From a virus, in the IMG/VR virus record IMGVR_UViG_3300036980_001087, positions 1-64,000 of that record: a DNA stretch of 64,000 bases; one strand, given 5' to 3'. The notes under the pieces were generated by a model. That model searched no databases. It had not been told where the DNA came from and worked only from the letters and a program-made list of their open reading frames with translations. The position numbers and the translations under genes were made by a program. This document shows, piece after piece, positions 4,277 through 60,650 of the stretch (within the stretch, counting starts at the first letter, position 1; each line of letters begins with the position of its first letter).

Positions 4277-4296
4277 TTTGGTATATAATATATAAT
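4277..4296 (+). promoter_or_regulatory. repeated promoter-like motif 1 (TTTGGTATATAATATATA)
   Basis: A short gap after the polymerase gene contains TTTGGTATATAATATATA, 14 bases before the next start codon. The same 18 bases recur before the gene at 14011, and a 13-base core recurs before the gene at 12704. TGG followed by TATATA fits an extended -10 element; I see no consistent -35 box. It is probably an internal phage promoter. Confidence 0.6.
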
Positions 4297-4309
4297 AGAA
4301 GGAGCCACA

Positions 4310-10110: not shown

Positions 10111-11618
10111 TGAAATTTAAATCGTTACATCTTGAGGGGTTCCAGTCCTATGATAAGGCGGATATCCTTTTTACCGACTTCAAGATCACCTTTATTACCG
10201 GACTAAACCAAGATACTGGAAGTAGTAATGGTGCTGGAAAAAGTGGAATAAAAGAGGCCTTATTCTATTTATTATTTGGAAGATCTAAGGTTAAAGGTCC
10301 AGATTTGATTAGACGTGGACAAAAAGTACTTAAGGTCTCTGGACAAATTGAGCACAATTCCTATGTACTTGATATTACCAGAACACGAAAAGCCCAAACT
10401 GCTACTTTAGAACTAGTAATTAATGGAGTACCAAGTATAGGGACAGCCTCCGAGTTACAAACTAAAATTGAACAGTTACTTGGTATTGATATTGATTCCT
10501 TTACTACCTATTCCGTAATTGATAAGGTGAGGCAAACAGACTTAACTCAATTATCTTCTACGGATTTACGAATGGTACTCCAAGACTTATTAGGGTTAAA
10601 TAAGTTACAGGATGTTTTATCTTCCTTAAATGCACATAAAAATGATCTTGAGAAGTACCTCTTACGGGCACATACTAGATTCTACCCTTCAGAGAAAAGG
10701 CTCAATGCATTAAAAGATTACCAAACATTATTACAGGAAAAACGAGATGGGTTTGGTACAAAAGTACTTGATGCTTCTAGTCAAAAGAATGCATTACAGC
10801 ATGATATTGAAGCATTAGAATTAAAAAATAGAGAGTTGACATGTGATAAAAATAATTTATTAAAAGTTGCAGAATGCCCAACATGTGGTGCACCTATTTC
10901 CATAGATAAGCGTATGGCAAAATTAAATATTGTTGAGGCAGAGATTGCAGGTAATCAGGGCACTATAGAAAAATTGAAAGGGGACATTACTCCTCTTACA
11001 TCAAAAATTACAGAGTATTTAAATATAAATACTAATCTTGGAGTACGGATTACGAGGTGTATAACTAGAATTGCCCAACTAACAGAAAGCATGAAAGAGC
11101 AACAAGATATTAATGTAGTTAAAGTAGAGCAAGAAACTTATGTTACGGCCCTAATTGTGCTTCAAAATTATATTACGTCTGTATTAGCAGATGTGGCTTT
11201 GAAGATTGAGGACCAGATGAACCTAGAACTTTCTAGATTTAGTGATCTATTTTGTAAGATTAATCTTTCTAAGACCAAACTTGATGGGCAAATAATACCA
11301 AACTGCTCTATTACTTTATATCGGGATCAATATGAATATACTTTTGATATGCTTTCTTCGGGTGAGCAGGCCTTAGTTTCTCTGATATTTAAACTTGTGA
11401 TAAGTAACCTTCGTGGTAATGTATCTATGTTGTTTGTAGATGAGGGCCTAGACGCATTAGATGAGGTGAATAGGGAACGCATTTTATCCCTATTAGAGAT
11501 TAGCCCCTATACTCAGATATTTATCATTAGCCATAGAGAAGATTCAAATCATATTAAAGCAGGGCAGAAGATACTATTAAGAAAGACTGATGGAATTACA
11601 CAAGTAATAAGCATATAA
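10110..11618 (+). CDS. sbcC: SbcC/Rad50-type ATPase subunit
   Basis: 502 residues. Walker A GSSNGAGKS is at 37-45, followed by helical arms. A zinc hook CPTC lies near residues 255-258, the ABC signature LSSGEQALVSL near 417, and Walker B LFVDEGLDALD near 443-453. It is much shorter than bacterial SbcC, with short coiled-coil arms as in T4 gp46. It drives the SbcD-like nuclease encoded upstream. TAATGA-type junctions on both sides keep the pair in one translation unit. Confidence 0.92.
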   Translation: MKFKSLHLEGFQSYDKADILFTDFKITFITGLNQDTGSSNGAGKSGIKEALFYLLFGRSKVKGPDLIRRGQKVLKVSGQIEHNSYVLDITRTRKAQTATLELVINGVPSIGTASELQTKIEQLLGIDIDSFTTYSVIDKVRQTDLTQLSSTDLRMVLQDLLGLNKLQDVLSSLNAHKNDLEKYLLRAHTRFYPSEKRLNALKDYQTLLQEKRDGFGTKVLDASSQKNALQHDIEALELKNRELTCDKNNLLKVAECPTCGAPISIDKRMAKLNIVEAEIAGNQGTIEKLKGDITPLTSKITEYLNINTNLGVRITRCITRIAQLTESMKEQQDINVVKVEQETYVTALIVLQNYITSVLADVALKIEDQMNLELSRFSDLFCKINLSKTKLDGQIIPNCSITLYRDQYEYTFDMLSSGEQALVSLIFKLVISNLRGNVSMLFVDEGLDALDEVNRERILSLLEISPYTQIFIISHREDSNHIKAGQKILLRKTDGITQVISI

Positions 11619-12681: not shown

Positions 12682-12694
12682 GGTATATAATATA
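12682..12694 (+). promoter_or_regulatory. repeated promoter-like motif 2 (GGTATATAATATA)
   Basis: A 13-base match to the core of the motif at 4277 and 13981, placed just after the HNH stop codon and 9 bases before the next start codon, with GGTGGGGG in between. No clear -35 box. It probably gives the genes after the HNH insertion their own promoter. Confidence 0.5.
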
Positions 12695-12703
12695 AGGTGG
12701 GGG

Positions 12704-13980: not shown

Positions 13981-13998
13981 TTTGGTATATAATATATA
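13981..13998 (+). promoter_or_regulatory. repeated promoter-like motif 3 (TTTGGTATATAATATATA)
   Basis: Identical over 18 bases to the motif at 4277-4294 and directly followed by GGAGG and an ATG at 14011. It fills a 31-base gap between two genes, so it is not coding. It probably drives the phosphoesterase-deoC-sigma gene block. Confidence 0.6.
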
Positions 13999-14010
13999 GT
14001 GGAGGATGAA

Positions 14011-14349: not shown

Positions 14350-15493
14350 AGAAACTGATATCCTTAAAAAATTACTTGAAGATGGAAAGACCTTAGCTGA
14401 ATGTGCCGAGATCATGGGACGTTCCTATAATAGTATTGAACACAAGGCGCGTGTATTGAAATTTACCCGGCCTAAGGAAGACACCAAGGAAACTAAGCCT
14501 TTGGACTTTTCTGATGGTAAGTTAAAACCAGCACAGAAGCAAGAGCTTTTAGAGACATTCTCTCCTGTAATTATAGATACCCTTAAAACAAATATCTTTA
14601 CTAAAAGGCCATATATTCAATTAAAACATGGCCTATATGAAGAAGAGGCAGTATTGGTTTTATCGGATATGCATACAGGAATGATTAATGAGATCTATGA
14701 TCCTAATAGTCAAAGTAAAGTTATAACCTATAATGAAGAAATTAGGCAGAAAGAATTAACGTATTTACGGGACTCTATGTTTGAAATCCAGACTATTCTC
14801 TCTAAATCCTATAATTTACGTAAGCTGCATATCCTAATATTAGGAGACATGATCACTAATGATCGTATATTTGATGGACAAAAATTTGAAATTGATCGTC
14901 CTTATGGCAAACAGGTGTGGGATACGGTAAGAGACCTTACCTATTTTGTAAATCAAATGACTACTCGCTTTCCTAAGGTGCATGTAATTGGCATTGTTGG
15001 AAACCACGGTAGATCAAATGAAAAGTATTCCGAAGAGCCGGTAGAGAATAACTTTGAGTGGACGCTATACAGGATAATGCAAGAGGCCCTAAAGAAGAAC
15101 CCTAATGTAGAAATGGAAGTACCAGATACTCGCTTCTATTCTACCCAGATATTTGGACATCGTTATTATATGCACCATGGAGATAATCTAAGGGGCTTTT
15201 CTAAAACGGCAGTTGAACGGGGAGCAAGAGATTTATTGACCACCTTAATCCCCGATCTTCCTAGTGGTTTTGATGTTTATTTAATGGGACATTTACATTC
15301 TGCGGAGAAGATGGACTTGAATGAGCGATCTACAATGATAGTTAATGGGAGCTTTATCCCTAGAGATCAATATGGGTATAAGATGTTTAGAAGGTACTCT
15401 AAGCCCCAGCAGTGGTTCTTTGGTGTTGGAAAAAGTCGGCCAATAACCTGGTCTTATGCTTTAGACCTTAAAGGAACCGAAAGGACAAAATAA
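14333..15493 (+). CDS. calcineurin-like phosphoesterase with N-terminal HTH
   Basis: 386 residues. Residues 1-45 form a GcrA/Myb-like helix-turn-helix (LAECAEIMGRSYNSIEHKAR) that may bind DNA. The rest is a metallophosphoesterase: LSDMHTG, LGDMITNDRIFDG, VGNHGRSN, MHHGDN and MGHLHSAE carry the usual Asp, His and Asn metal ligands. It is distinct from the SbcD-like gene. A DNA-targeted phosphatase or nuclease is likely; the substrate is unknown. The start has AGGAGGAAAAG upstream, and the stop overlaps deoC. Confidence 0.8.
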   Translation: MEWPNKETDILKKLLEDGKTLAECAEIMGRSYNSIEHKARVLKFTRPKEDTKETKPLDFSDGKLKPAQKQELLETFSPVIIDTLKTNIFTKRPYIQLKHGLYEEEAVLVLSDMHTGMINEIYDPNSQSKVITYNEEIRQKELTYLRDSMFEIQTILSKSYNLRKLHILILGDMITNDRIFDGQKFEIDRPYGKQVWDTVRDLTYFVNQMTTRFPKVHVIGIVGNHGRSNEKYSEEPVENNFEWTLYRIMQEALKKNPNVEMEVPDTRFYSTQIFGHRYYMHHGDNLRGFSKTAVERGARDLLTTLIPDLPSGFDVYLMGHLHSAEKMDLNERSTMIVNGSFIPRDQYGYKMFRRYSKPQQWFFGVGKSRPITWSYALDLKGTERTK

Positions 15494-16188
15494 TGAATAA
15501 GCAAGAAATAGCACAGGTAATAGATCATACTAACCTTAAGCCTGATTTAAATCGTAAAGGAATTATAACTTTACTTGAAGAGGCTAAGAAGTATAATTTT
15601 AAAGCCGTTTGTGTTACACCTGCTTGGGTATATCTTGCTAAACAAAGACTTGCTGGGACAGGAATTGAAGTATCTACAGTTCCAAATTGGGCTTCCGGGG
15701 GTGGACTCGAGAGAATAAAAGGGGAATATGTTTTTGAAGAGGCGGATGCCATAGATTATATTTGGGATATTTATCAGTTTGGAGTGCTTAAAGCATATGA
15801 TAAAACAGCTAAAGAATTAGAGCAAATAAGACTAAAGACTCGTGGAGAATTAAAAATAATTATTGAGTCCACTGTTATACGTAGTATTGCCGAACATAAA
15901 AAAGAAAATTATGAGGATATAATGAAAGAAGCCTGTAACTTGGTGCAGAATTCGGGGGCCAATTGGATAAAAACAGATAGTGGCTTATTTCTTAGAGATC
16001 CTAAATTTAAGATCCAAAATTTATATGAGGATGTTAAGTTAATGAAGCAAAATTGTACTCTTCCAATTAAAGCTGCGGGAGGAATAGGCACAAAAGAAGA
16101 AGTAGTAACTTTAGTAGCATTAGGCGCATCACGTATTGGAACATCAAGAGGAGTGATGATAGTAGAAAGCATTAAGGAGACGGCATGA
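15493..16188 (+). CDS. deoC: deoxyribose-phosphate aldolase
   Basis: 231 residues of the DeoC family. DHTNLKPD at 11-18 matches the family start, D88 lies in the ADAID segment, K160 in NWIKTDSG is the Schiff-base lysine, and K193 in PIKAAGGIGT is the second active-site lysine. It splits 2-deoxyribose-5-phosphate into acetaldehyde and glyceraldehyde-3-phosphate, feeding carbon from degraded host DNA into central metabolism. It is surrounded by other nucleotide and sugar genes (a deoxyribosyltransferase-like enzyme and a SemiSWEET-like protein), so salvage of deoxynucleosides is a coherent theme. Confidence 0.9.
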   Translation: MNKQEIAQVIDHTNLKPDLNRKGIITLLEEAKKYNFKAVCVTPAWVYLAKQRLAGTGIEVSTVPNWASGGGLERIKGEYVFEEADAIDYIWDIYQFGVLKAYDKTAKELEQIRLKTRGELKIIIESTVIRSIAEHKKENYEDIMKEACNLVQNSGANWIKTDSGLFLRDPKFKIQNLYEDVKLMKQNCTLPIKAAGGIGTKEEVVTLVALGASRIGTSRGVMIVESIKETA

Positions 16189-16556
16189 TAAATCAAGTAT
16201 TAAGGGACATCTTTGGATTTGCATTAGTACTTACGGGCATACTTGATGCTTGGAAATATGCACTCCAGGCCTCAAAGATCCGTAAAGAGAAAACCGCGGG
16301 AGTATTATCTAGGCAGTTTATTAATTATGCTATCTTAAATGATATAGTTAAATTAGCATATGGCTTTATTATTTGGGATGCGTTTATTATTTCTACCTCA
16401 ATATTAGCACTTATTTGCATGTTATATTTATTTTGGACAGTTTATATTTATTATGATTATGAAACTTATCCTAGGAGATGCTATATTAAGCGGCCTAGAT
16501 TATTTACATATATAGTTAATTCAGTATTACCGAACGCTAAAAGGAAACATCTTTAA
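16185..16556 (+). CDS. SemiSWEET/PQ-loop-like membrane protein
   Basis: 123 residues with three hydrophobic helices (about 7-23, 46-65, 68-92) and a basic C-terminal tail. Between helices 1 and 2 is ALQASKIRKEKTAGVLSRQF, which resembles the PQ...K..KS..GxS...F linker of MtN3/SemiSWEET transporters, although the Pro-Gln pair itself is absent. SemiSWEETs are three-helix sugar transporters that work as dimers. It overlaps deoC (ATGA), which suggests a shared task such as moving sugar or intermediates. The family call is moderate. Confidence 0.5.
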   Translation: MINQVLRDIFGFALVLTGILDAWKYALQASKIRKEKTAGVLSRQFINYAILNDIVKLAYGFIIWDAFIISTSILALICMLYLFWTVYIYYDYETYPRRCYIKRPRLFTYIVNSVLPNAKRKHL

Positions 16557-18439: not shown

Positions 18440-18904
18440 ATGGAAAAAGATAATACCTTAAAAAATACTAATCCTAAAGATGCAATTGGTTGTAACAAAG
18501 TACCATTGCACCTATTTCCAGAAACAGCTACTATCCTTGGTTCTTTGGGCTTATTGGATGGTATGCTTAAGTATGGCCGAGCAAATTGGCGGAGAGCCGG
18601 AATTAGGGCATCAATATATTATGATGCTTGCCGTAGGCATATGAATGCTTGGTTTGAGGGGGAAGACACCGATCCAGACTCAGGCTTACCACATTTAGCT
18701 CACGCTATAGCATGTATAGCTATCATTATTGATGCTAAAGCTGCAGGTAAATTAAATGATGATAGACAAATACCAGGAGGATATCGTAAACTCCTAAATG
18801 AAATGACCAAAGAAGTAGCTAGACTTAAAGAGCTACATAAAGAAAAAGATCCCAAGCATTATACTATAGCAGACAAAGAAGGGGAAAATGACACGAAGAG
18901 TTAA
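18440..18904 (+). CDS. dATP/dGTP diphosphohydrolase-like protein (DUF5664)
   Basis: 154 residues showing the family pattern NPKDAIGCNKVPL near the start, then LKYGRANWRRAG, YYDACRRHMNAW, GEDTDPDSGLPHLAHA. Family knowledge: this domain is the N-terminal part of phage dATP/dGTP diphosphohydrolases and is also found alone. It may trim purine dNTP pools during infection or support a modified nucleotide pathway. No PurZ-type gene is seen in the window. It lies directly before the sigma-like genes. Confidence 0.7.
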   Translation: MEKDNTLKNTNPKDAIGCNKVPLHLFPETATILGSLGLLDGMLKYGRANWRRAGIRASIYYDACRRHMNAWFEGEDTDPDSGLPHLAHAIACIAIIIDAKAAGKLNDDRQIPGGYRKLLNEMTKEVARLKELHKEKDPKHYTIADKEGENDTKS

Positions 18905-19304
18905 GTCCCATAAAGTATACTTAAATGTAAAAGAAGTCCCGGCTAAGATTAATGAGATCATAGGCTACCTCTCTATGGACTTTGGAAGAAATAAATTACT
19001 TGAGCGGGATGATATTGCTCAAGATTTATATGTAGTCTATTTTGATATGTTAAGAAAGCGACCAGAACTTATTAATGAGCGGCCCGGATATTTCTTTATT
19101 AAATTTAAGTGGTACCTTCTTACAAAGTGGAGAAAGCGAGTAAAGGATATTAATAAAGAGTGGCAATATAAATTACAGCGATTTCGTGATGAAGGTATTC
19201 CAGACGACTTCCAGGAACATGCACCTTACGATCCTAAATTAAAGGGGGATGCCCCTAAGAAGAAGAAACGATTAACTAAAAAAAGAAAAGTATATGGATT
19301 TTAA
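18888..19304 (+). CDS. sigma-70 region 2-like protein (split sigma factor, part 1)
   Basis: 138 residues. The middle matches sigma region 2 of the ECF type: LERDDIAQDLYVVYFDML is the helix that binds the RNA polymerase clamp, and PGYFFIKFKWYLLTKWRKR is the -10 recognition/melting helix with its aromatic and basic residues. There is no region 4 after it; the C-terminus is a basic, disordered tail (KKKKRLTKKRKVYGF). The next gene encodes a region 4-like helix-turn-helix. Together they could form a two-subunit sigma factor, as SPO1 gp33/gp34 or bacterial SigO/RsoA do. The sigma call is from pattern only. Confidence 0.65.
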   Translation: MTRRVKSHKVYLNVKEVPAKINEIIGYLSMDFGRNKLLERDDIAQDLYVVYFDMLRKRPELINERPGYFFIKFKWYLLTKWRKRVKDINKEWQYKLQRFRDEGIPDDFQEHAPYDPKLKGDAPKKKKRLTKKRKVYGF

Positions 19305-19357
19305 CATTATGTGGGAGATGTATTTAGCTAATTTATCTGAACAATGGGAGTTTTCAT

Positions 19358-19633
19358 ATGCATAATGAGGAGATAGGAAATCGGGCAGCTTATACTTCTA
19401 TGTTAGAGCAGGTAAGGGATGAGTTAGGAGAGGGACTCTATGAAATTGCAGAAATGCTTAGCCATGGATTAACTAAACGTAAAGTAGCAAAGCTTTTAAA
19501 TGTCCCTTATCCTGAACTTAAGAAGAAAGTATTGCTCTTAAAGAAATTTATTGCACAGGAATATTATACTGGAGGAAAAGATGGTGGAAAAAAAGGCCGT
19601 AAGACCTTAAAAAAGAAAAATGTACGATTATAA
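19358..19633 (+). CDS. sigma region 4-like HTH protein (split sigma factor, part 2)
   Basis: 91 residues. YEIAEMLSHGLTKRKVAKLL followed by NVPYPELKKKVLLLKKFI has the shape of a sigma region 4 helix-turn-helix (short helix, turn, recognition helix, then a long helix). The tail is very basic (GGKKGRKTLKKKNVRL). It directly follows the region 2-like gene, so the pair may jointly recognise phage late promoters. A simple DNA-binding transcription factor is the alternative. An HNH gene starts inside its last codons. Confidence 0.55.
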   Translation: MHNEEIGNRAAYTSMLEQVRDELGEGLYEIAEMLSHGLTKRKVAKLLNVPYPELKKKVLLLKKFIAQEYYTGGKDGGKKGRKTLKKKNVRL

Positions 19634-20162
19634 AGGCTATAGAAAGAAGCATCAGTTAGCACGTAATGCCTATAGTAAAAACTATAGAGAGGAGCATTTG
19701 GCTTATTTTACTAATTATAGAAAGGCATATAAAATTAAATTAAATAAGTATTATAAAAAATATGCTAAATTACACAAAGAAGAAATCTGTAAAAGGAAGG
19801 TGCTCTATAGACAAAGAAATAAACTACAATTAGCAATTTATAAAAAACAATATATGTCTAAATTTGAACATAAACTCAAAAATAGAATTTATTCTACTAA
19901 TAGAAGAGCACAAATTAAAGGCCTAACCACGATACTTATTTCTCAAGTTTATGCAGCAAATAAAAAGAAGTTTGGAGTACTTACTTGTTACCTTTGTTTA
20001 AAGCCAATACCTAAAGAAAAAGACACCCTTGAACACAAAATTCCCCTTAGTAGGGGTGGCACTAATAACAAAAGAAATTTAGCAGTAGCTTGTAATACTT
20101 GTAATTGTAAAAAGGGAACTAAAACAAATATAGAATATTTAAAATTAAGGAGTTTAAAATGA
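19620..20162 (+). CDS. HNH homing endonuclease
   Basis: 180 residues. A long, very basic, Tyr/Lys-rich helical N-terminus with repeated YxKxYxxxH-like units is followed by a classic HNH domain: CYLC, then LEHKIPLSRGGTNNKRNL, then CNTCNCKKG. Catalytic His is in LEHK, and the two CxxC pairs hold structural zinc. The N-terminal part resembles those of the two HNH proteins encoded at 42.8 and 44.7 kb. Its last codons carry the AAGGAG site for TerS, and it overlaps both neighbours, so insertion kept them translatable. Confidence 0.85.
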   Translation: MYDYKGYRKKHQLARNAYSKNYREEHLAYFTNYRKAYKIKLNKYYKKYAKLHKEEICKRKVLYRQRNKLQLAIYKKQYMSKFEHKLKNRIYSTNRRAQIKGLTTILISQVYAANKKKFGVLTCYLCLKPIPKEKDTLEHKIPLSRGGTNNKRNLAVACNTCNCKKGTKTNIEYLKLRSLK

Positions 20163-20746
20163 CAAAAGCAGTTGGACGCCCCCGTAAAGCAGATCTAAGT
20201 AGGAGGCTCTCAGAAGCACAGGACTATCTTCTTAAGGGGTTTAAAGACCATGAGATAGTTGAGGCTATGGCTAAAGAGTTTCCTGGCTATACTAATAATA
20301 TGTTAGCGGCGGATAAAGAGGCAATTACAGCCAATTACATTAAGGCTGTAACTGAAAATAAGTATCTTCTGGCTAAACAAGCAGAGCATATTATGAAGCA
20401 TCTTGATCAGCTAGACATGATCAAAAAGAAACTCTGGGAGATTGAAGGTAAGGCCGGACAAGATACAAGAGGGCAACTTGAGGCATTAAAGACCCTGCTT
20501 ACTGAATTAGAGCATGAGTCAAAGATCTTAAAGTTAATAGATACTTCCCATAAGATCATTAAGAACTACATTCATATTGATAAGATCAACGTCCTTATGG
20601 AAAAGCTTACTGGAGTTATTAGGGAGTTTGTTCCAGAAGATAAACAGGCCTATGCTTTTCAAAGGATTAAAGAAATGGGCAATGTATTAGATACTGAATG
20701 TACAGAAGTAGTTGATGAAATTGAAAAACAAGAAAACCAAAACTAA
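20159..20746 (+). CDS. small terminase subunit (probable)
   Basis: 195 residues placed directly before TerL. The N-terminal 55 residues look like a DNA-binding HTH (GRPRKADLSRR...FKDHEIVEAMAKEFPGYT), followed by a long helical oligomerisation region (YLLAKQAEHIMKHLDQLDMI...) and an acidic tail. This is the build of small terminases, which form rings that recognise the packaging site. The call rests on position and architecture more than on sequence identity. Confidence 0.65.
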   Translation: MTKAVGRPRKADLSRRLSEAQDYLLKGFKDHEIVEAMAKEFPGYTNNMLAADKEAITANYIKAVTENKYLLAKQAEHIMKHLDQLDMIKKKLWEIEGKAGQDTRGQLEALKTLLTELEHESKILKLIDTSHKIIKNYIHIDKINVLMEKLTGVIREFVPEDKQAYAFQRIKEMGNVLDTECTEVVDEIEKQENQN

Positions 20747-20754
20747 GGATTATT

Positions 20755-22488
20755 ATGGGAATAGGTAGCACTTGGGAAAATTTCTTTGATAGGCAATCTA
20801 AAAATAATGTCTCTACGGCTAAATTTATATATAAGCCGGTAGCTCCAGAGATATTCTTTAGAGATTGGATGGGGCAACCATTATTCCCAGAGCAATTAAA
20901 TCCTATCAATGCAATGTTTACTCCAGATCTTGAGGACTTAAGCCCAGCAACCAATGAGCTTTTATTAATGTGGGGAGAAGGCTCTGGAAAAGACTTCCTG
21001 TGTGAACGTATTCTAATCTATGTTGCCTATTGGCTTTTATGTCTTAAGAGCCCCCAAAAATATTTAGGTAGAGCAGAAGGTACTCCAATCGACCTAGTTA
21101 ATACTTCTGTTAATGAAGAGCATGCGTCAAATGTATTTTTTGAGCAATTCTGCCAGGCTATTAAGCTGGTTATAAATCCAGATACTGGAAAGAACTGGTT
21201 TGAAGAACAGGGAATGGACATTAGAACTGGGCAGGATATCTTAACAACTAAAGTAAAATTTCCTAAGAACATCTCTGCCTATTCTTGTAACTCCGTTAAA
21301 TATACGGCAGAAGGAAAGAACGTTTTAATAGGAATCCTCGACGAAATAGCTGAATTTAAATATGATAAAGCTAAGTCTCTTTATACTAACTTAAAAGCTA
21401 CTGCGACCTCACGTTTTCCTGGTAAACACAAGATTATTCTTATCTCCTATTTAAGAGACGAGTTTGATTTTATGAATAGCCATTGGAATGAAGTCGAGGC
21501 CATGCCTACAAGTTTAAGAGATAAAGTCTATATGTCAAAGAAATGTACTTGGGAAGTTAATCAGACAGTCACTAAACTAGATTACGCAGATGCATATGAG
21601 AAGGATCCCGAAGATTCCGCAAGACGTTATGAGAACATTATGCCCAGTAAGAAGGGGGCTAAATTTATCAAAGACGGAATGCGCATTACAAATGCTGTGT
21701 ATGATTTCGAGGGCTCCCCTATCATCTCAGAAACACCTTATATTAGTACAAATTTAAAGGATGAGGTCTTTCAAGTATGGTTTAAACCTTATTGTATTAA
21801 AGAAATATATAGATTAGAGCAGGAGTTTGCCTTAACTCCAACAGCAGATTTACGATTAAAGATAGATGGCTTAAAAGAGATGCATAGTAATGGGGGGTAT
21901 TATATCCACATTGACTTGTCAAAGGGCGCCTATGACTATGCTGGGCTATGCTTGTTACATACTTATCAAAAAACTGAGTCCCAAATAGGGTATCATGTAG
22001 ATTTAATAGTCCAATTACAGCCTGATGGGAATGAAATCAATTTTGAACAGATTAGAGAGTTTATTTTTAAATTACAGGCCCAAGGTTTCCCGATTGCTAA
22101 GGTATCTTTAGACGGCTGGAACAGTGTTGATTTTATGCAACTTTTAGATAAACGCGGAATCACTGTAGAATTGGTTTCTGTTGATCGAACTATGCAACCC
22201 TACAACACACTTAAAGATGTCCTCTACCAAGAAGTGCTGGAATATTACTATAACCCTATACTACTTAGAGAGTTAAATGAATTACAATTAATCAATGGTA
22301 AGGTGGACCATCCTAAAGAAAGTCCTGAAAGATTGAAAGAAGAAGGTAAGCGGCTTGGATCTAAGGACCTCGCTGATGCTTTAGCTGGTGCTACTTTCTG
22401 TGCTGTTTCAGCAGGCGGCAGCGGTAATGGTTGTGTGGTAGAATTGGGCTCAAATGAGCCAGATGATTTATTAGACAAGTTCTTCTAA
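20755..22488 (+). CDS. terL: terminase large subunit
   Basis: 577 residues. The ATPase domain has a Walker A variant GEGSGKD at 74-80 and Walker B GILDEIAEF with D195/E196. The RNase H-like nuclease domain begins near 380 with YIHIDLSKGAYDYAGL, D386 being the first metal ligand, and a later SLDGWNSVDF segment and an Asp in SKDLADALAG complete the site. It pumps DNA into proheads and cuts the concatemer. It is followed by a 61-base gap containing the GTTTTCAAT motif and then the portal gene. Confidence 0.92.
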   Translation: MGIGSTWENFFDRQSKNNVSTAKFIYKPVAPEIFFRDWMGQPLFPEQLNPINAMFTPDLEDLSPATNELLLMWGEGSGKDFLCERILIYVAYWLLCLKSPQKYLGRAEGTPIDLVNTSVNEEHASNVFFEQFCQAIKLVINPDTGKNWFEEQGMDIRTGQDILTTKVKFPKNISAYSCNSVKYTAEGKNVLIGILDEIAEFKYDKAKSLYTNLKATATSRFPGKHKIILISYLRDEFDFMNSHWNEVEAMPTSLRDKVYMSKKCTWEVNQTVTKLDYADAYEKDPEDSARRYENIMPSKKGAKFIKDGMRITNAVYDFEGSPIISETPYISTNLKDEVFQVWFKPYCIKEIYRLEQEFALTPTADLRLKIDGLKEMHSNGGYYIHIDLSKGAYDYAGLCLLHTYQKTESQIGYHVDLIVQLQPDGNEINFEQIREFIFKLQAQGFPIAKVSLDGWNSVDFMQLLDKRGITVELVSVDRTMQPYNTLKDVLYQEVLEYYYNPILLRELNELQLINGKVDHPKESPERLKEEGKRLGSKDLADALAGATFCAVSAGGSGNGCVVELGSNEPDDLLDKFF

Positions 22489-22503: not shown

Positions 22504-22520
22504 TTAGTTTTCAATTATAA
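22504..22520 (+). promoter_or_regulatory. GTTTTCAAT motif before portal (late-type control site)
   Basis: TTAGTTTTCAATTATAA lies in the gap between terL and portal, 34 bases upstream of the portal ATG. The core matches six sites on the opposite strand ahead of other virion genes, and TAGTTTTCAATTATA is shared in full with the site at 57.5 kb. A promoter for structural genes is the favoured reading. Confidence 0.6.
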
Positions 22521-24177: not shown

Positions 24178-24963
24178 ATGATCCTACGTCAAACAGAATA
24201 TAATAACTGGAGAGGGGCATGGGATTCTGAAAGAGCCTATATAGTTTATGATATCATTGAATATAATGGCTCTTCCTATGTTTGCATTAAACAACATACC
24301 AATCAAGCTCCTCCAAATTTTACTTATTGGGATTTATTAGCTGAAGGACAAATAGGTCCGCAAGGTCCTCAAGGGGATATTGGTACACAAGGAGATCAGG
24401 GTTTTCAGGGGCAAAAGGGTGACCAAGGTTTCCAGGGAGATGTTGGAAGTACTGGACCTCAAGGTCTTCAAGGTAATACGGGAGCGCAAGGCCCACAAGG
24501 TTTAACGGGCTCTACTGGACCACAAGGCAATCAAGGATTTCAAGGTAACCAAGGGCCGCAGGGAGATCAAGGCTTTCAGGGGATCCCTGGGCCAATGACA
24601 CAAGTAGGTTCCAATAGTAGTGATGGAGTAACAAATACTACTTCTGGAACTTATACCCAAAAATTAAGTTTATCCTTTACTCCTACAGTTACTGGAACTT
24701 ATCTCTTATCTTGGTCAGCAGAAGTAACAAATTCTACAAAAAATAATACTACATATGTACAAGTACAACAGAACGATACTACTACATTAGCAGGAGAAAT
24801 TGCTGGATATATTCTTACTGCGGAAGCCTATATTCCTTTCTCAGGTATTGCAATTTTATCATTAACCGCAAGTACGGTCTATAATTTTGATATGGATCTT
24901 CGGAGAGATGCAGCTACAGGTAGAATTCGTAATGCACGTTTATCTTTAGTGAGGTTGACATAA
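24178..24963 (+). CDS. collagen-like fibre with carbohydrate-binding N-terminus
   Basis: 261 residues. Residues 1-55 form a CBM5/12-like module (WRGAWDSERAYIVYDIIEYN, YVCIKQHTN, YWDLL). Residues 60-140 are Gly-x-y triplets rich in Gln (GPQGDQGFQG types) that should form a collagen triple helix. The last 115 residues are a beta-rich, C1q/TNF-like head ending in RNARLSLVRLT. It would be a trimeric spike on head or tail for sticking to surface sugars. A paralogue with two such CBM modules is encoded on the opposite strand at 54.9 kb. Confidence 0.85.
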   Translation: MILRQTEYNNWRGAWDSERAYIVYDIIEYNGSSYVCIKQHTNQAPPNFTYWDLLAEGQIGPQGPQGDIGTQGDQGFQGQKGDQGFQGDVGSTGPQGLQGNTGAQGPQGLTGSTGPQGNQGFQGNQGPQGDQGFQGIPGPMTQVGSNSSDGVTNTTSGTYTQKLSLSFTPTVTGTYLLSWSAEVTNSTKNNTTYVQVQQNDTTTLAGEIAGYILTAEAYIPFSGIAILSLTASTVYNFDMDLRRDAATGRIRNARLSLVRLT

Positions 24964-27197: not shown

Positions 27198-27974
27198 TTA
27201 ATATGCGGAACGTAAAAATTCCAAAGTGAAGTTGGAATATTTTCCGCTTGATCCGCTAGAAGATCCCCTAACAAAACAAACATTTGTAAGCGTATAAGAG
27301 GTGCCACCATACGTTACTGTTAGTGTATCTGCCGTTGTTGATAAAGTAGTATATAGATTAACTAAATATTGCTCTATTTCAATTCTAGAGTCTTTTTTAA
27401 TATATCCATTTACTGTAATACTTAATTTACCACCACCAACATAACCAGTGGACATCATTTTAATTCCTAAAGCGGTTGGTAACATATACTCAATCACATT
27501 TCCATCATAAGCAACATTAACTGAAGCATGATCCCCAATATAAATACTACCAAATTTAACTGTTTCTACCTCAGCAGTAGATCCAGGAGCATCGTCTATT
27601 TTTCCAGACTTAGAAAATGTAAAGGTTGAAACAACAAATTCTCCCTGCGCAGACTTAATAGAATATGAGGTAACCCTACAATTAGCTAAAGTTACGGCTA
27701 TACCGGTTGTTCCATCTGGCCCACCCAAGGTAAGGATGATGTCAAAATAAGCACCGACATCAAGTCCGGTATCAAAAGTAGGCTCTAAAAACTCACAAGT
27801 TACGGTAAGATCCTCTGTCTCAGTGTCTTCTGAGATAACCTGCCCCTCAGGGCCATACTCCTTATGGGTATTAATTCTATAATCTAAAGCAATATTTCGG
27901 GCAAATTCTATCGTTTTAATAGTAGCCCCACCTTGCTTTAGAACTAAATTCCCTACAGAAAAGCTGTAAACCAT
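27198..27974 (-). CDS. tail-tube-like two-domain protein
   Basis: 258 residues. The first half ends in LANCRVTSYSIKSAQGEFVV followed by STFTFSKSG, closely echoing the end of the tail tube candidate at 39.7 kb (LNRCKATNYEITSTQDGFIT then YRLELRKS). A second, similar beta domain fills residues 135-258 (LTVTYGGTSYTLTNVCFV...NFTLEFLRSAY). So it looks like a tandem pair of tube-fold domains, perhaps a distal tail or baseplate ring, or a second tube subunit. A GTTTTCAAT motif and GGAGG precede it, suggesting separate expression. Confidence 0.6.
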   Translation of the reverse strand: MVYSFSVGNLVLKQGGATIKTIEFARNIALDYRINTHKEYGPEGQVISEDTETEDLTVTCEFLEPTFDTGLDVGAYFDIILTLGGPDGTTGIAVTLANCRVTSYSIKSAQGEFVVSTFTFSKSGKIDDAPGSTAEVETVKFGSIYIGDHASVNVAYDGNVIEYMLPTALGIKMMSTGYVGGGKLSITVNGYIKKDSRIEIEQYLVNLYTTLSTTADTLTVTYGGTSYTLTNVCFVRGSSSGSSGKYSNFTLEFLRSAY

Positions 27975-27990
27975 TGGTATTCCTCCTACT

Positions 27991-27999
27991 ATTGAAAAC
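27991..27999 (-). promoter_or_regulatory. GTTTTCAAT motif before tail-tube-like gene
   Basis: Read on the minus strand, GGTAGTTTTCAATAGTAGGAGG contains the repeated core and runs straight into the ribosome binding site; the start codon is 16 bases beyond the core. It sits in a 63-base gap. Confidence 0.55.
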
Positions 28000-28037
28000 T
28001 ACCTAATAAGTACAATATATTTTAATTTAAATTCTTC

Positions 28038-42243: not shown

Positions 42244-42762
42244 TTACCTCCTAATTTTCTTTTTTTCAGTATTACTAAACAACCAGAAGTCCACAAATAA
42301 TGGCTTTAGGTTTTTAGTTGTAATTAAATGCCTAATAAAGGCGTTAAAATTTACATGGTTTGATTTAAGCAAGTCCTGCTTAGAAATTACAAAAATTCCA
42401 CAGTCCGCTATACGTTCATTATCAAAAATAAGATCCCCATTAGGCTCTACCCTCCAAGTTTTAGAGCCGCGTAACCTTTTAAGAAATACTGCATTTCCCG
42501 GTTGTTTACTTGCCAATGCCTCTATCTCCTTAATATTCCCAGGTAAAACTCTACATCCAAAAGACACTATAATCTGCTGTTCCTCAATGTGGTTACAGAT
42601 TTCCCTCAATTTATCCATGGTCTTCTCTATGGTGCAGACAGGATATTGAGATTCCATTCTAGTAAATACAAAATATTTTCTATCTAGTAATGATAGCAAT
42701 GCTTTACCAAGAAAATCTACTTCTTGGTCCTGAGTATTAACAAAAACTATGACTACGGACAT
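42244..42762 (-). CDS. hypothetical alpha/beta protein in the capsid-connector gap
   Basis: 172 residues starting MSVVIVFVNTQDQEVDFLGK. Alternating strands and helices suggest a Rossmann-like or GT-A-like fold: MDKLREICNHIEEQQIIVSF and DCGIFVISKQDLLKSNHVNF are faintly like sugar nucleotidyltransferases. It lies downstream of a glycosyltransferase, separated only by an HNH gene, so a link to sugar transfer is possible but unproven. A GTTTTCAAT motif and GGAGG precede the start. Confidence 0.5.
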   Translation of the reverse strand: MSVVIVFVNTQDQEVDFLGKALLSLLDRKYFVFTRMESQYPVCTIEKTMDKLREICNHIEEQQIIVSFGCRVLPGNIKEIEALASKQPGNAVFLKRLRGSKTWRVEPNGDLIFDNERIADCGIFVISKQDLLKSNHVNFNAFIRHLITTKNLKPLFVDFWLFSNTEKKKIRR

Positions 42763-42774
42763 TTGGTCCTCCTA

Positions 42775-43293
42775 TTATTGAAAACTAACTTTGCTTCCCT
42801 TTCTTAAATTATCTCCGGCCCACAAAGGTTGTAAGTTTGTATAATGAAAACATTTACGTTGTTCTGCTGGTTTGCTCAAATCAAAAGAAGCACAGGGCCT
42901 TATATGGTCTACATGCCACTTCCCATAATTCCTCCAGGACATGCCTGGTTTAAATTTAGATATAAGATGTTGTTTAAGTTGCTCTATGGAACAACCTAAT
43001 AATTCTATAGTAGGGGCATCTTTTAAGGACATAGCTATATAGTTACTTACTCTTCTTCTTAAATTTTTAGTTAATTTAAAATTAATATCTGTTTTATACT
43101 TAATTCGTTGATATGCCACTGCCTTTGCATTTATTCTGTCTTTATTCTTTAAATACCACTTATGACTAAAATTTTTAAACTTGGGTAATAAGTTCTTTTT
43201 ATGTTTTATATACCAACTATGTTGTAATTTTTTAATTTTTAATCTATGTGTAGCTCTATAATTCCTAAGATATAAACTACGTGTTTTATCCAT
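42775..43293 (-). CDS. HNH homing endonuclease
   Basis: 172 residues. The N-terminal 100 residues are basic and helical with repeated WYxKxK units. The C-terminal HNH core reads SWRNYGKWHVDHIRPCASFD...FHYTNLQPLWAGDN, with catalytic His in VDH and a closing Asn-Leu-Gln-Pro-Leu segment. It is a close paralogue of the protein at 44.7 kb. Between them lies only the glycosyltransferase gene. The gene is flanked by two GTTTTCAAT motifs and its start overlaps the glycosyltransferase end. Confidence 0.85.
   Translation of the reverse strand: MDKTRSLYLRNYRATHRLKIKKLQHSWYIKHKKNLLPKFKNFSHKWYLKNKDRINAKAVAYQRIKYKTDINFKLTKNLRRRVSNYIAMSLKDAPTIELLGCSIEQLKQHLISKFKPGMSWRNYGKWHVDHIRPCASFDLSKPAEQRKCFHYTNLQPLWAGDNLRKGSKVSFQ
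42777..42785 (-). promoter_or_regulatory. GTTTTCAAT motif at the 3' end of an HNH gene
   Basis: On the minus strand, TTAGTTTTCAATAATAGGAGG overlaps the last codons and stop of the HNH gene and lies 14 bases before the next start codon. With the copy at 43308 it brackets the HNH gene. Confidence 0.5.
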
Positions 43294-46366: not shown

Positions 46367-47698
46367 TTATTTTCCCTGCAAAACTTTCAAAAAGCCCTGC
46401 TCGGGTGTTACTACTTCTTTAACTTCTTTCACCGGCACCACAGCATCTTTATTGACTAAGGGGGTGCTTTTCGAGGGATCAACAACTACCTCTTTTACCT
46501 TAGCCTGCAAGGCGCCTAGATCCTTCGTTATCTGATTCAGTTGTTCCGTGATAGGAGCTTGATTCGCCTTTTCGATCTTCAAACCGTCTACTTCGGCAGT
46601 GAGGGATTTAATCATAGCCTCTTTCTCTTCCAACTGTTTCTGATAATCGGCTCTAATAGCCTTTAATTCTTCTTCTGTATAAGTTCTAACTGCTACTACC
46701 TGTTCAGTTTCGGTAACTTTCAGCGCGTCATTTATTAAGGTTTCTTTGGTAGATTCTACCTTAGATTCCTGGGTAATGACAGCTTTGCCTTCTGTGACTT
46801 CCCTTGTGGTAACTATTTCAGCAGTCTCTTTGACTGTTTCAACTACCACATTGGCAGGCGCTGGATCAGCAGGAGCTTCCTGCTTCACGACAGGTTCAAC
46901 CGCAGGGTCAATTTTTACTTCCTCGGCCTTGACTTCTTCAGATTTAACTTCTTCAACTACTGGGGCAGTAACTATTTCTTCCACCTTTACTTCTTCTACT
47001 GCAGTCTTTTCCACAACTACCTCCTCTGCTATAAGTTCTTTAGTTTCAGTAACTTCTACATCTTTTTTAGTAGTCACTGGTTTGGGTAATTTATCATCCT
47101 TTACTTCATCTGGAATTGCGCCTAAATTCTCAATCTGCTTTTCTTTAAATGTATCCTCTTGTCCAACAACATCTTGCAATGCTTTAGTTAAAGACTTATG
47201 TGCAAACTCAGCCCTACAATTGGCAGGCAATCCTACCACAGACACTTCAAAAAGTTCCATCGAAGAGATCACATTTACGGGAGTTGCGGGCTTGGTCTTT
47301 AAATAGGGGAACCGGTGAATCGCCTCTGTAGGAGAAACCCTTTCCCCAGCGGTAAGCCTGCCCCCAATAGAGAACTTGCTAATTATTCCTTCTTCAATCT
47401 TTTTACGTAACTCCTCTTCCCACTGAGAGATATAGATTTTAACCCATAGTCCCTGATTATCTACTTTAGCATCATCTAAGCGGCCGATTGCGCGGTTATA
47501 ATCATGATTAAAGAAGACAGTATTTCCAAATTCTAATAGGCCAATAGCTGCCTCTTTGAGGGCATCAAGGACTATAATATCACCCTGGCGATCTAAGTCT
47601 TTAGTCGCCGCATATCCCTCGATGTAAAACCCCTTGCCTTCATGGCCGGATTTTACGATATCTAAACTAAAATAAAAATCGTTTTTTAAAAGTGTCAT
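46367..47698 (-). CDS. prohead protease fused to scaffold
   Basis: 443 residues from the ATG at 47698, behind GAGAGGG; an ORF extension upstream would include the GTTTTCAAT motif. Residues 1-165 are an HK97-type (U35/S78) protease: FYIEGYAATKDLDRQGDII, H65 in FFNHDY, S110 in SKFSIGG and an acidic ELFEVSVVGLPAN. The rest is a Lys/Glu/Val-rich low-complexity region and then a coiled coil (YQKQLEEKEAMIKSLTAEVD), as in fused internal scaffolds that are digested during head maturation. Confidence 0.88.
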   Translation of the reverse strand: MTLLKNDFYFSLDIVKSGHEGKGFYIEGYAATKDLDRQGDIIVLDALKEAAIGLLEFGNTVFFNHDYNRAIGRLDDAKVDNQGLWVKIYISQWEEELRKKIEEGIISKFSIGGRLTAGERVSPTEAIHRFPYLKTKPATPVNVISSMELFEVSVVGLPANCRAEFAHKSLTKALQDVVGQEDTFKEKQIENLGAIPDEVKDDKLPKPVTTKKDVEVTETKELIAEEVVVEKTAVEEVKVEEIVTAPVVEEVKSEEVKAEEVKIDPAVEPVVKQEAPADPAPANVVVETVKETAEIVTTREVTEGKAVITQESKVESTKETLINDALKVTETEQVVAVRTYTEEELKAIRADYQKQLEEKEAMIKSLTAEVDGLKIEKANQAPITEQLNQITKDLGALQAKVKEVVVDPSKSTPLVNKDAVVPVKEVKEVVTPEQGFLKVLQGK

Positions 47699-47718
47699 AG
47701 TTTGTTCCCTCTCTACTA

Positions 47719-47727
47719 ATTGAAAAC
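47719..47727 (-). promoter_or_regulatory. GTTTTCAAT motif before protease/capsid genes
   Basis: On the minus strand, AGGTGTTTTCAATTAGTAGAG lies 20 bases before the protease start, with GAGAGGG following. It precedes the protease-scaffold-capsid block, the part of the operon that should be most strongly expressed. Confidence 0.55.
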
Positions 47728-47767
47728 ACCTCAAATCATGAAAGTTACAACTTTTTATTCTAATTCT

Positions 47768-57353: not shown

Positions 57354-57514
57354 AACTCCACCTCTATGTTTAAAATTTTAGCTCGCTACCTATCTTACTT
57401 ATTTCAGCCCTAACTAGGGTCAATGAAAAGGATCAAGTCCCGTTGCAGAAGGCCCTGTCATGAACAGGATTTTCGGCAGCAAGCTGAATCTAATAATTCT
57501 CTTTTTCCTCTATA

Positions 57515-57523
57515 ATTGAAAAC
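57515..57523 (-). promoter_or_regulatory. GTTTTCAAT motif before the whole structural operon
   Basis: On the minus strand, GAGTAGTTTTCAATTATAGAG lies 161 bases upstream of the first leftward gene. TAGTTTTCAATTATA is shared exactly with the site before portal on the other strand, so the two halves of the virion gene set carry the same element. Confidence 0.6.
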
Positions 57524-57591
57524 TACTCTATATATAATAATTGGGTAATAAAACCTCTTTATTTTAAAGGGGTTGCGCCTAACTTTATTAT

Positions 57592-60101: not shown

Positions 60102-60650
60102 ATGACTTGGAAAGAGTTTTATAAGTCTAGAGTAACAAGTGTAGAATATGAAAATTACTTTATAGATAAATATTCTATATTCTTGGATACTCTAGACTGC
60201 CAAGTAGGAAAGTCTTTTCTGGAAGTGGGATGTGGCACAGGGCTAGTTACTAAGCTAATCTATCATCCAAAAAGAACATTCACTCTTATGGATAATGATA
60301 GAGCAATGTTAGGACTAGCAAAGAATAGGTTACAGCCATTGCCCATATCTTATATCTGTAAAGATATTAGAGCTCCATTACATCAGCATTATGATGTAAT
60401 ATATTCTCACGGAGTGCTAGAACATTTATCTTTAACAGAATGTAAGAGGATCATACGCAATCAACTATCAGTAAGTAATACGCTAGTGCATTATGTTCCT
60501 ACTGATGGCTATAACGAGCCTAGCTTTGGAGATGAAAATTTATTAGCCAAAGAGGTATGGGATGGTGCACTATACCCAACAAAGAGTATAGCCTTTAATG
60601 GGTTTAAAGACTTGCTCTTAATCTGGGAGAAAGGAAAAGATGGGACTTAA
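60102..60650 (+). CDS. SAM-dependent methyltransferase
   Basis: 182 residues, class I methyltransferase: motif I FLEVGCGTGLVTKLIY (about 39-54), an acidic strand end TLMDND, motif around CKDIRAPL, and motif IV-like DVIYSHGVLEHLSL. It is short, with no target-recognition domain and no NPPY motif, so a small-molecule, protein or RNA substrate is more likely than adenine in DNA. It lies among early genes. It is not closely similar to the methyltransferase at the left end. Confidence 0.75.
   Translation: MTWKEFYKSRVTSVEYENYFIDKYSIFLDTLDCQVGKSFLEVGCGTGLVTKLIYHPKRTFTLMDNDRAMLGLAKNRLQPLPISYICKDIRAPLHQHYDVIYSHGVLEHLSLTECKRIIRNQLSVSNTLVHYVPTDGYNEPSFGDENLLAKEVWDGALYPTKSIAFNGFKDLLLIWEKGKDGT

Follow-up and report, generated by a model that had tools for sequence, protein, structure and literature searches.

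A candidate split sigma factor encoded by adjacent genes upstream of terminase in an uncultivated tailed phage

The gene pair and its neighbourhood

The window analysed here opens a 96,942-base virus record (G000) and covers its first 64 kb; the record is a tailed phage as judged from its terminase and portal genes. Two adjacent genes in it, P1 and P2 (Table 1), were read in a preliminary description as sigma region 2 and sigma region 4 placed on separate proteins just before terminase. Both are present as ORFs, 53 nt apart, each with a plausible ribosome-binding site. Compared with the relative L005, whose terminase is 83% identical, the two genes differ mostly at third positions (pN 0.24 for both; pS 0.93 for P1 and 0.84 for P2). 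They are real genes evolving under protein-level constraint. The described position before terminase is also correct, with an HNH endonuclease gene and a small-terminase-like gene lying between P2 and the large subunit, and a portal gene (22550) following it. The diphosphohydrolase-type gene in front of the pair is likewise found there in L002, L010 and L011. The HNH gene is probably a mobile homing-type insertion.

Table 1. Genes and promoter-like motifs at the P1/P2 locus and elsewhere in the record
Feature	Position	Strand	Basis or remark
Middle-type motif GGTATATAATATATAATA	4280..4297	+	12 nt before gene 4310
Middle-type motif	12682..12699	+	3 mismatches, all outside the GGTATATAATATA core
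Middle-type motif GGTATATAATATATAGTG	13984..14001	+	Directly before the gene run leading to P1/P2 and terminase
dATP/dGTP diphosphohydrolase-type gene	18440..18904	+	PF18909, E 2e-24; overlaps P1 start
P1, 138 aa, region-2-like	18888..19304	+	ERDDIAQDLY (sigma 2.2-like); aromatic/basic helix PGYFFIKFKWYLLTKWRKR (2.3-2.4-like)
P2, 91 aa, helix-turn-helix (HTH), region-4-like	19358..19633	+	AF2 model and relatives
HNH endonuclease gene	19620..20162	+	Between P2 and small terminase; absent from L005
Small-terminase-like gene	20159..20746	+	N-terminal HTH, conserved C-terminal domain; four-relative alignment
Large terminase subunit	20755..22488	+	Followed by portal gene
Late-type motif TAGTTTTCAATTATA	22505..22519	+	30 nt before portal gene (22550); also before portal gene in L005 and L011
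Late-type motif TAGTTTTCAATAGTA	27987..28001	-	12 nt before gene 27198-27974; matching site G002 60470-60484
Late-type motif TAGTTTTCAATAATA	42773..42787	-	Before gene 42244-42762
One-mismatch late-type motif GTTTTCAATTAG	47719..47728	-	At start of gene called as 46367-47734
Late-type motif TAGTTTTCAATTATA	57511..57525	-	Heads minus-strand late block; similar site G002 86183-86197
S2, 123-aa ORF, gp55-like, region-2-only	93085-93456 (outside window)		Pfam region-2 search of whole record

Relatives of the locus were collected through a large-terminase scan (L002, L003, L004, L005) and through scans with P1-family alignments (L010, L011). A terminase alignment yielded 35 loci, in which every ORF was searched with a P1 profile. 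This gave 31 matches at E <= 5e-6, all 31 of them upstream of terminase genes; because some contigs are represented twice and others are almost identical, they amount to closer to 15 distinct cases. At the loci inspected, an HTH-type ORF directly follows P1 and is followed in turn by a small-terminase-like ORF, and P1 and P2 are adjacent in every inspected locus that has P1. The order P1-P2-terS-terL was found in four diverged lineages of uncultivated phages (IMG/VR contigs, ~15 distinct): the window with L005; L002, L010, L011 and L026; L034, L036, L042, L039 and L037; and L045-L047. A further case of the pair is G012 (L061). Single-sequence scans of viral contigs gave no matches, tblastn of P1 and of its relatives against INPHARED phages found none, and a scan of genome contigs with the P1 alignment found no relative.

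In L002 (6850-6935), L010 (6248-6318) and L011 (6266-6348), the P2 frame opens before P1 has ended, shifted by +1 relative to it, giving 70-86 nt of dual coding as counted from the starts used here. A programmed frameshift fusing P1 and P2 was considered because of this overlap and was set aside, separate translation being simpler, since in L002 and L011 the internal starts have good ribosome-binding sites.

Sigma likeness of P1, P2 and a distant gene, S2

Searched on their own, P1 and P2 match neither a Pfam family nor a PHROG sigma family, and the case for them therefore rests on their relatives. The sigma likeness initially described for the two window proteins, for which profile searches were proposed as a check, stays below threshold in Pfam and PHROG for the proteins themselves and shows only through their relatives.

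The best Pfam result among P1 relatives comes from G012, where a P1-family profile match (11017-11274, E 5e-19) and a match to Sigma70_r2 (PF04542; 11083-11253) fall on the same stretch. The latter has an E-value of 5.3e-4 for that genome, or about 0.006 allowing for the 12 genomes searched, and its score of 15.6 bits is below the curated Pfam cut-off of 24, which P1 does not reach either. Independent evidence is modest in strength but agrees with this: the PHROG sigma-K family is matched by 3/14 members of the P1 family (best E 3.9e-4). Alignment of the P1 family with sigma region 2 by hhalign gave P 0.01-0.02 with the correct register at the DDIAQD / DLIQE motif, and column-permuted controls scored as well in 0/150, 0/150, 0/200 and 1/200 cases. 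In this register P1 carries the core-binding D-x-x-Q-(D/E) followed by an aromatic basic helix (ERDDIAQDLY ... FFIKFKWYLLTKWRKR). E. coli FecI has a DDIAQD identical to that of P1, and the motif is weakened in some P1 relatives, such as L034 (DLYND) and L011 (DLKQN). A 14-member P1 profile found no sigma among PDB sequences. On these sequence comparisons the region-2 homology of P1 is likely, and P1 is probably the region-2 half of the pair.

Structure prediction, another check proposed in the preliminary description, gave different outcomes for the two proteins. The P1 AF2 model, built from four sequences, is poor (pLDDT 64, pTM 0.41); its helices (19-34, 40-57, 66-101) are, at this low confidence, compatible with a sigma-2 fold, and Foldseek searches with it against the PDB and BFVD returned no sigma and no usable match. 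The P2 AF2 model (pLDDT 70) has four helices, and the PDB structure that it matches best is region 4 of E. coli sigma-E bound to -35 DNA, with further sigma-4 domains also among the top matches. For sigma-E region 4 the match has a probability of 0.99 and a TM of 0.5-0.64, with weak E-values (0.17 and weaker). Sigma-4 domains form the majority of the top matches, and the model is assigned a sigma-4 fold.

P2 relatives match Pfam region 4 (PF04545/PF08281) with a best E-value of 0.016, short of the curated cut-off, and two of them match PHROG sigma family 1740 over region 4 (L026, E 7e-6; L047, E 3.9e-4). Three distant relatives, L057, L051 and L054, encode a clear-cut region-4-only protein upstream of terminase (E 1e-9 to 1e-8 with an E. 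coli region-4 profile), and a P1 profile search of these three detected no P1. The best PDB sequence match of the L057 protein is RpoS region 4 (E 3e-6), and the 56 PDB matches listed at E <= 0.01 all belong to sigma factors. HTH similarity to region 4 is counted as generic, since the HTH of the small terminase gives a region-4 score too, at a lower level (23 vs 27-32). The window P2 has a shorter HTH than its relatives. Taken with the predicted fold, these matches make region-4 homology of P2 highly likely, and P2 is probably the region-4 half. Region 4 is missing from P1, and region 2 from P2, as originally described.

When the whole record was searched with Pfam region 2, another ORF came out, S2 (also at L021:1429-1800 and L024:12686-13057), which matches Sigma70_r2 at 93157-93357 with E 0.0016-0.013. 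Relatives of S2 in G001-G005 (E 1.9e-50 to 6.7e-14) include one, in G004, that exceeds the Pfam Sigma70_r2 cut-off (E 1.7e-7). The best PDB match of the S2 profile is sigma-H (E 0.0035), and hhalign against region 2 gave P 1e-4. The region-2 match of S2 is thus stronger than that of P1, and S2 has no region 4. It was not detected in G006-G010, records that carry P1/P2 and may be fragments. S2 and P2 are ~74 kb apart in record coordinates; on a circular genome the distance would be about 22 kb. G000 encodes two region-2-like proteins (P1 and S2) and one region-4-like protein (P2). Because S2 is also region-2-only, P1 is not the sole candidate partner of P2, and either protein may provide its region 2. 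The proposed split of regions 2 and 4 between two genes is therefore borne out at the family level (by the conserved pair, the G012 match, the P2 fold, the region-4-only proteins and the late motif described below), but not with P1 as the only possible partner.

Promoter-like motifs and a model for late transcription

Upstream sequences of the present record and of the L005 genome (G002) were sorted into three motif classes, with chance levels taken from third-order Markov simulations. The repeated promoter-like motifs that the pair was suggested to read are indeed there, in two classes that both lie far above simulation. Class (a) is made up of ordinary TTGACA-17-TATACT sites of the host type, most of which fall between 58 and 73 kb. 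Class (b), the middle-type GGTATATAATATA, has seven copies in G000 and five in G002, against 0.025 and 0 in simulation. These copies (4280, 12682 and 13984 in the window; 69479, 81587, 88866 and 91921 outside it) lack a -35 and mostly stand a few bases before plus-strand genes. Among the genomes scanned, the exact middle motif occurs only in G000, in G002, once in G001 and once in G003. It contains TGGTATATA, a fair extended -10, and could be read by host sigma-A unaided.

Class (c), the late-type TAGTTTTCAAT, has four exact copies in G000 and three in G002, against 0.075 in simulation. The copies sit before late genes, the first directly after terminase and before the portal gene. A gapped form, GTTTTCAAT-N(2-8)-GGAGG, is also present in G001, G004 and G005, and a reversed control pattern gave 0 matches. 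Searches for the gapped form in G003 and G006-G010 found it absent, though G006-G010 have the pair. Scans of the late motif with one or two mismatches are uninformative because their counts are close to simulation; significance attaches only to the exact core and to where it stands. We regard the middle-type and late-type motifs as candidate promoters.

Since the same pair stands at this place in many uncultivated phages, it probably helps to switch on late genes. That P1 and P2 together make up a split sigma, encoded by the phage for late transcription, stands, in our judgement, at an even chance, and whether they read the late motif could equally go either way. On this model, genes under host sigma-A would be expressed first, followed by a middle class including P1, P2 and terminase; the middle gene run starting at the GGTATATAATATA site at 13984 would produce P1 and P2. 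P1, as region 2, would use DDxxQ(D/E) to dock on the clamp helices of beta-prime in host RNA polymerase and would read and melt a -10-type element. P2, as region 4, would sit on the beta flap, perhaps touching upstream DNA. Together, P1 (sigma2) and P2 (sigma4) would bring the host enzyme to TAGTTTTCAATwwTA sites, beginning with the one before the portal gene. That the late motif first appears immediately after terminase fits P1/P2 being some of the last products made ahead of the switch. We infer from these sequences that the two proteins form a complex and bind polymerase, and also which promoters they serve and at what time.

The stronger region-2 match of S2 (by Pfam, PDB profile and hhalign) and its occurrence in G000-G005, the same set as the late motif except for G003, suggest another arrangement, in which S2 is the late sigma with P2 as its region-4/flap-binding partner and P1 is a diverged region-2 accessory or coactivator. 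We consider this rather unlikely: S2 is distant from P2, it is undetected in G006-G010, where P1 and P2 remain adjacent, and P1 and P2 are neighbours in every inspected P1 locus.

A refinement compatible with the split sigma model would assign S2 to the middle GGTATATAATATA and P1/P2 to the late TAGTTTTCAAT. It would account for two region-2-like genes in one genome and for two motif classes that are distinct from the sigma-A type, and in G000 and G002 the S2 gene has a middle-type site some 1 kb upstream. The TGGTATATA in the middle motif may be readable by host sigma-A alone, however, and S2 is found in all six genomes (G000-G005), whereas the exact middle motif is confined to four of them. 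We judge such a division of labour unlikely.

It is similarly doubtful that P1 and P2 are packaging-linked or general DNA-binding proteins co-inherited with terminase, their sigma likeness arising by convergence of small helical or HTH proteins. The strict terS/terL neighbourhood, the weak scores of P1 itself and the generic nature of HTH similarity would suit this reading, but a P1 relative matches Pfam region 2, strongly sigma-like region-4-only proteins occupy the same locus in distant relatives, and sigma-4 is the top structural match of P2. Quite improbable is a scheme of three sigma fragments (P1, S2 and P2) in which a swap of region 2 on a shared P2 would redirect host RNA polymerase from middle promoters to late ones; we know of no earlier description of a modular sigma swap of that kind.

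Comparison with known split sigma factors and other genes of the locus

If the split reading is right, P1/P2 would work like SigO-RsoA, which is one of the two analogues originally proposed and the one that holds. In B. subtilis, SigO provides sigma4 and RsoA sigma2 of one two-subunit factor (PMC10028694); a table in PMC10141391 gives their domains in the other order. The likeness, judged on domain content, lies in two small proteins, sigma2 and sigma4, that must cooperate. SigO-RsoA differs in being a cellular stress system, whereas P1/P2 is tied to phage terminase genes with the region-2 half first.

The other proposed analogue, SPO1 gp33/gp34, shares adjacent genes that both act in late transcription, gp34 being a sigma. 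It fits poorly, since gp34 carries region 2 (Pfam E 4e-5) together with a weakly matching region 4 (E 0.058). SPO1 gp33 forms its own family, PF25742, to which neither P1 nor P2 gave a match, and each of them holds at most one region.

In T4, gp55, for which a homology model covers region 2.1-2.4, attaches to the beta-prime coiled coil and gp33 to the beta flap; the two have been termed a split sigma for late genes (PMC2988020). T4 gp33 is without DNA sequence recognition, whereas P2 looks like a real region-4 HTH, and activation of the T4 late system depends on the gp45 clamp. Within G000 the closest counterpart of gp55 is S2 and not P1, gp55 and S2 both being region-2-only.

Because neither P1 nor P2 qualifies for Pfam membership, we describe the pair as a probable novel form of split sigma that falls outside the established families. 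Few split sigma factors occur in nature, the described cases that we found being SigO-RsoA in bacteria and gp55/gp33 of T4 in phages. If the split reading is true, a widespread terminase-linked pair with a candidate late promoter would offer a simple system for sigma domains acting in trans, and late-gene control would be explained in a group of uncultivated phages.

Several other genes were noticed by eye. The large terminase genes of L005 (8001-10217) and L010 (7316-10177) carry intein-like insertions, as does another L005 gene (3553-5142); the window's counterparts are without insertions. Upstream of the pair, 15493-16188 encodes a deoxyribose-phosphate aldolase-like protein and 16185-16556 a small membrane protein like PQ-loop/SemiSWEET transporters; both are also present in L005 and are unusual phage cargo. 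Soon after the portal gene, 24178-24963 encodes a collagen-like GPQGxQG repeat protein, likely a fibre or decoration protein.
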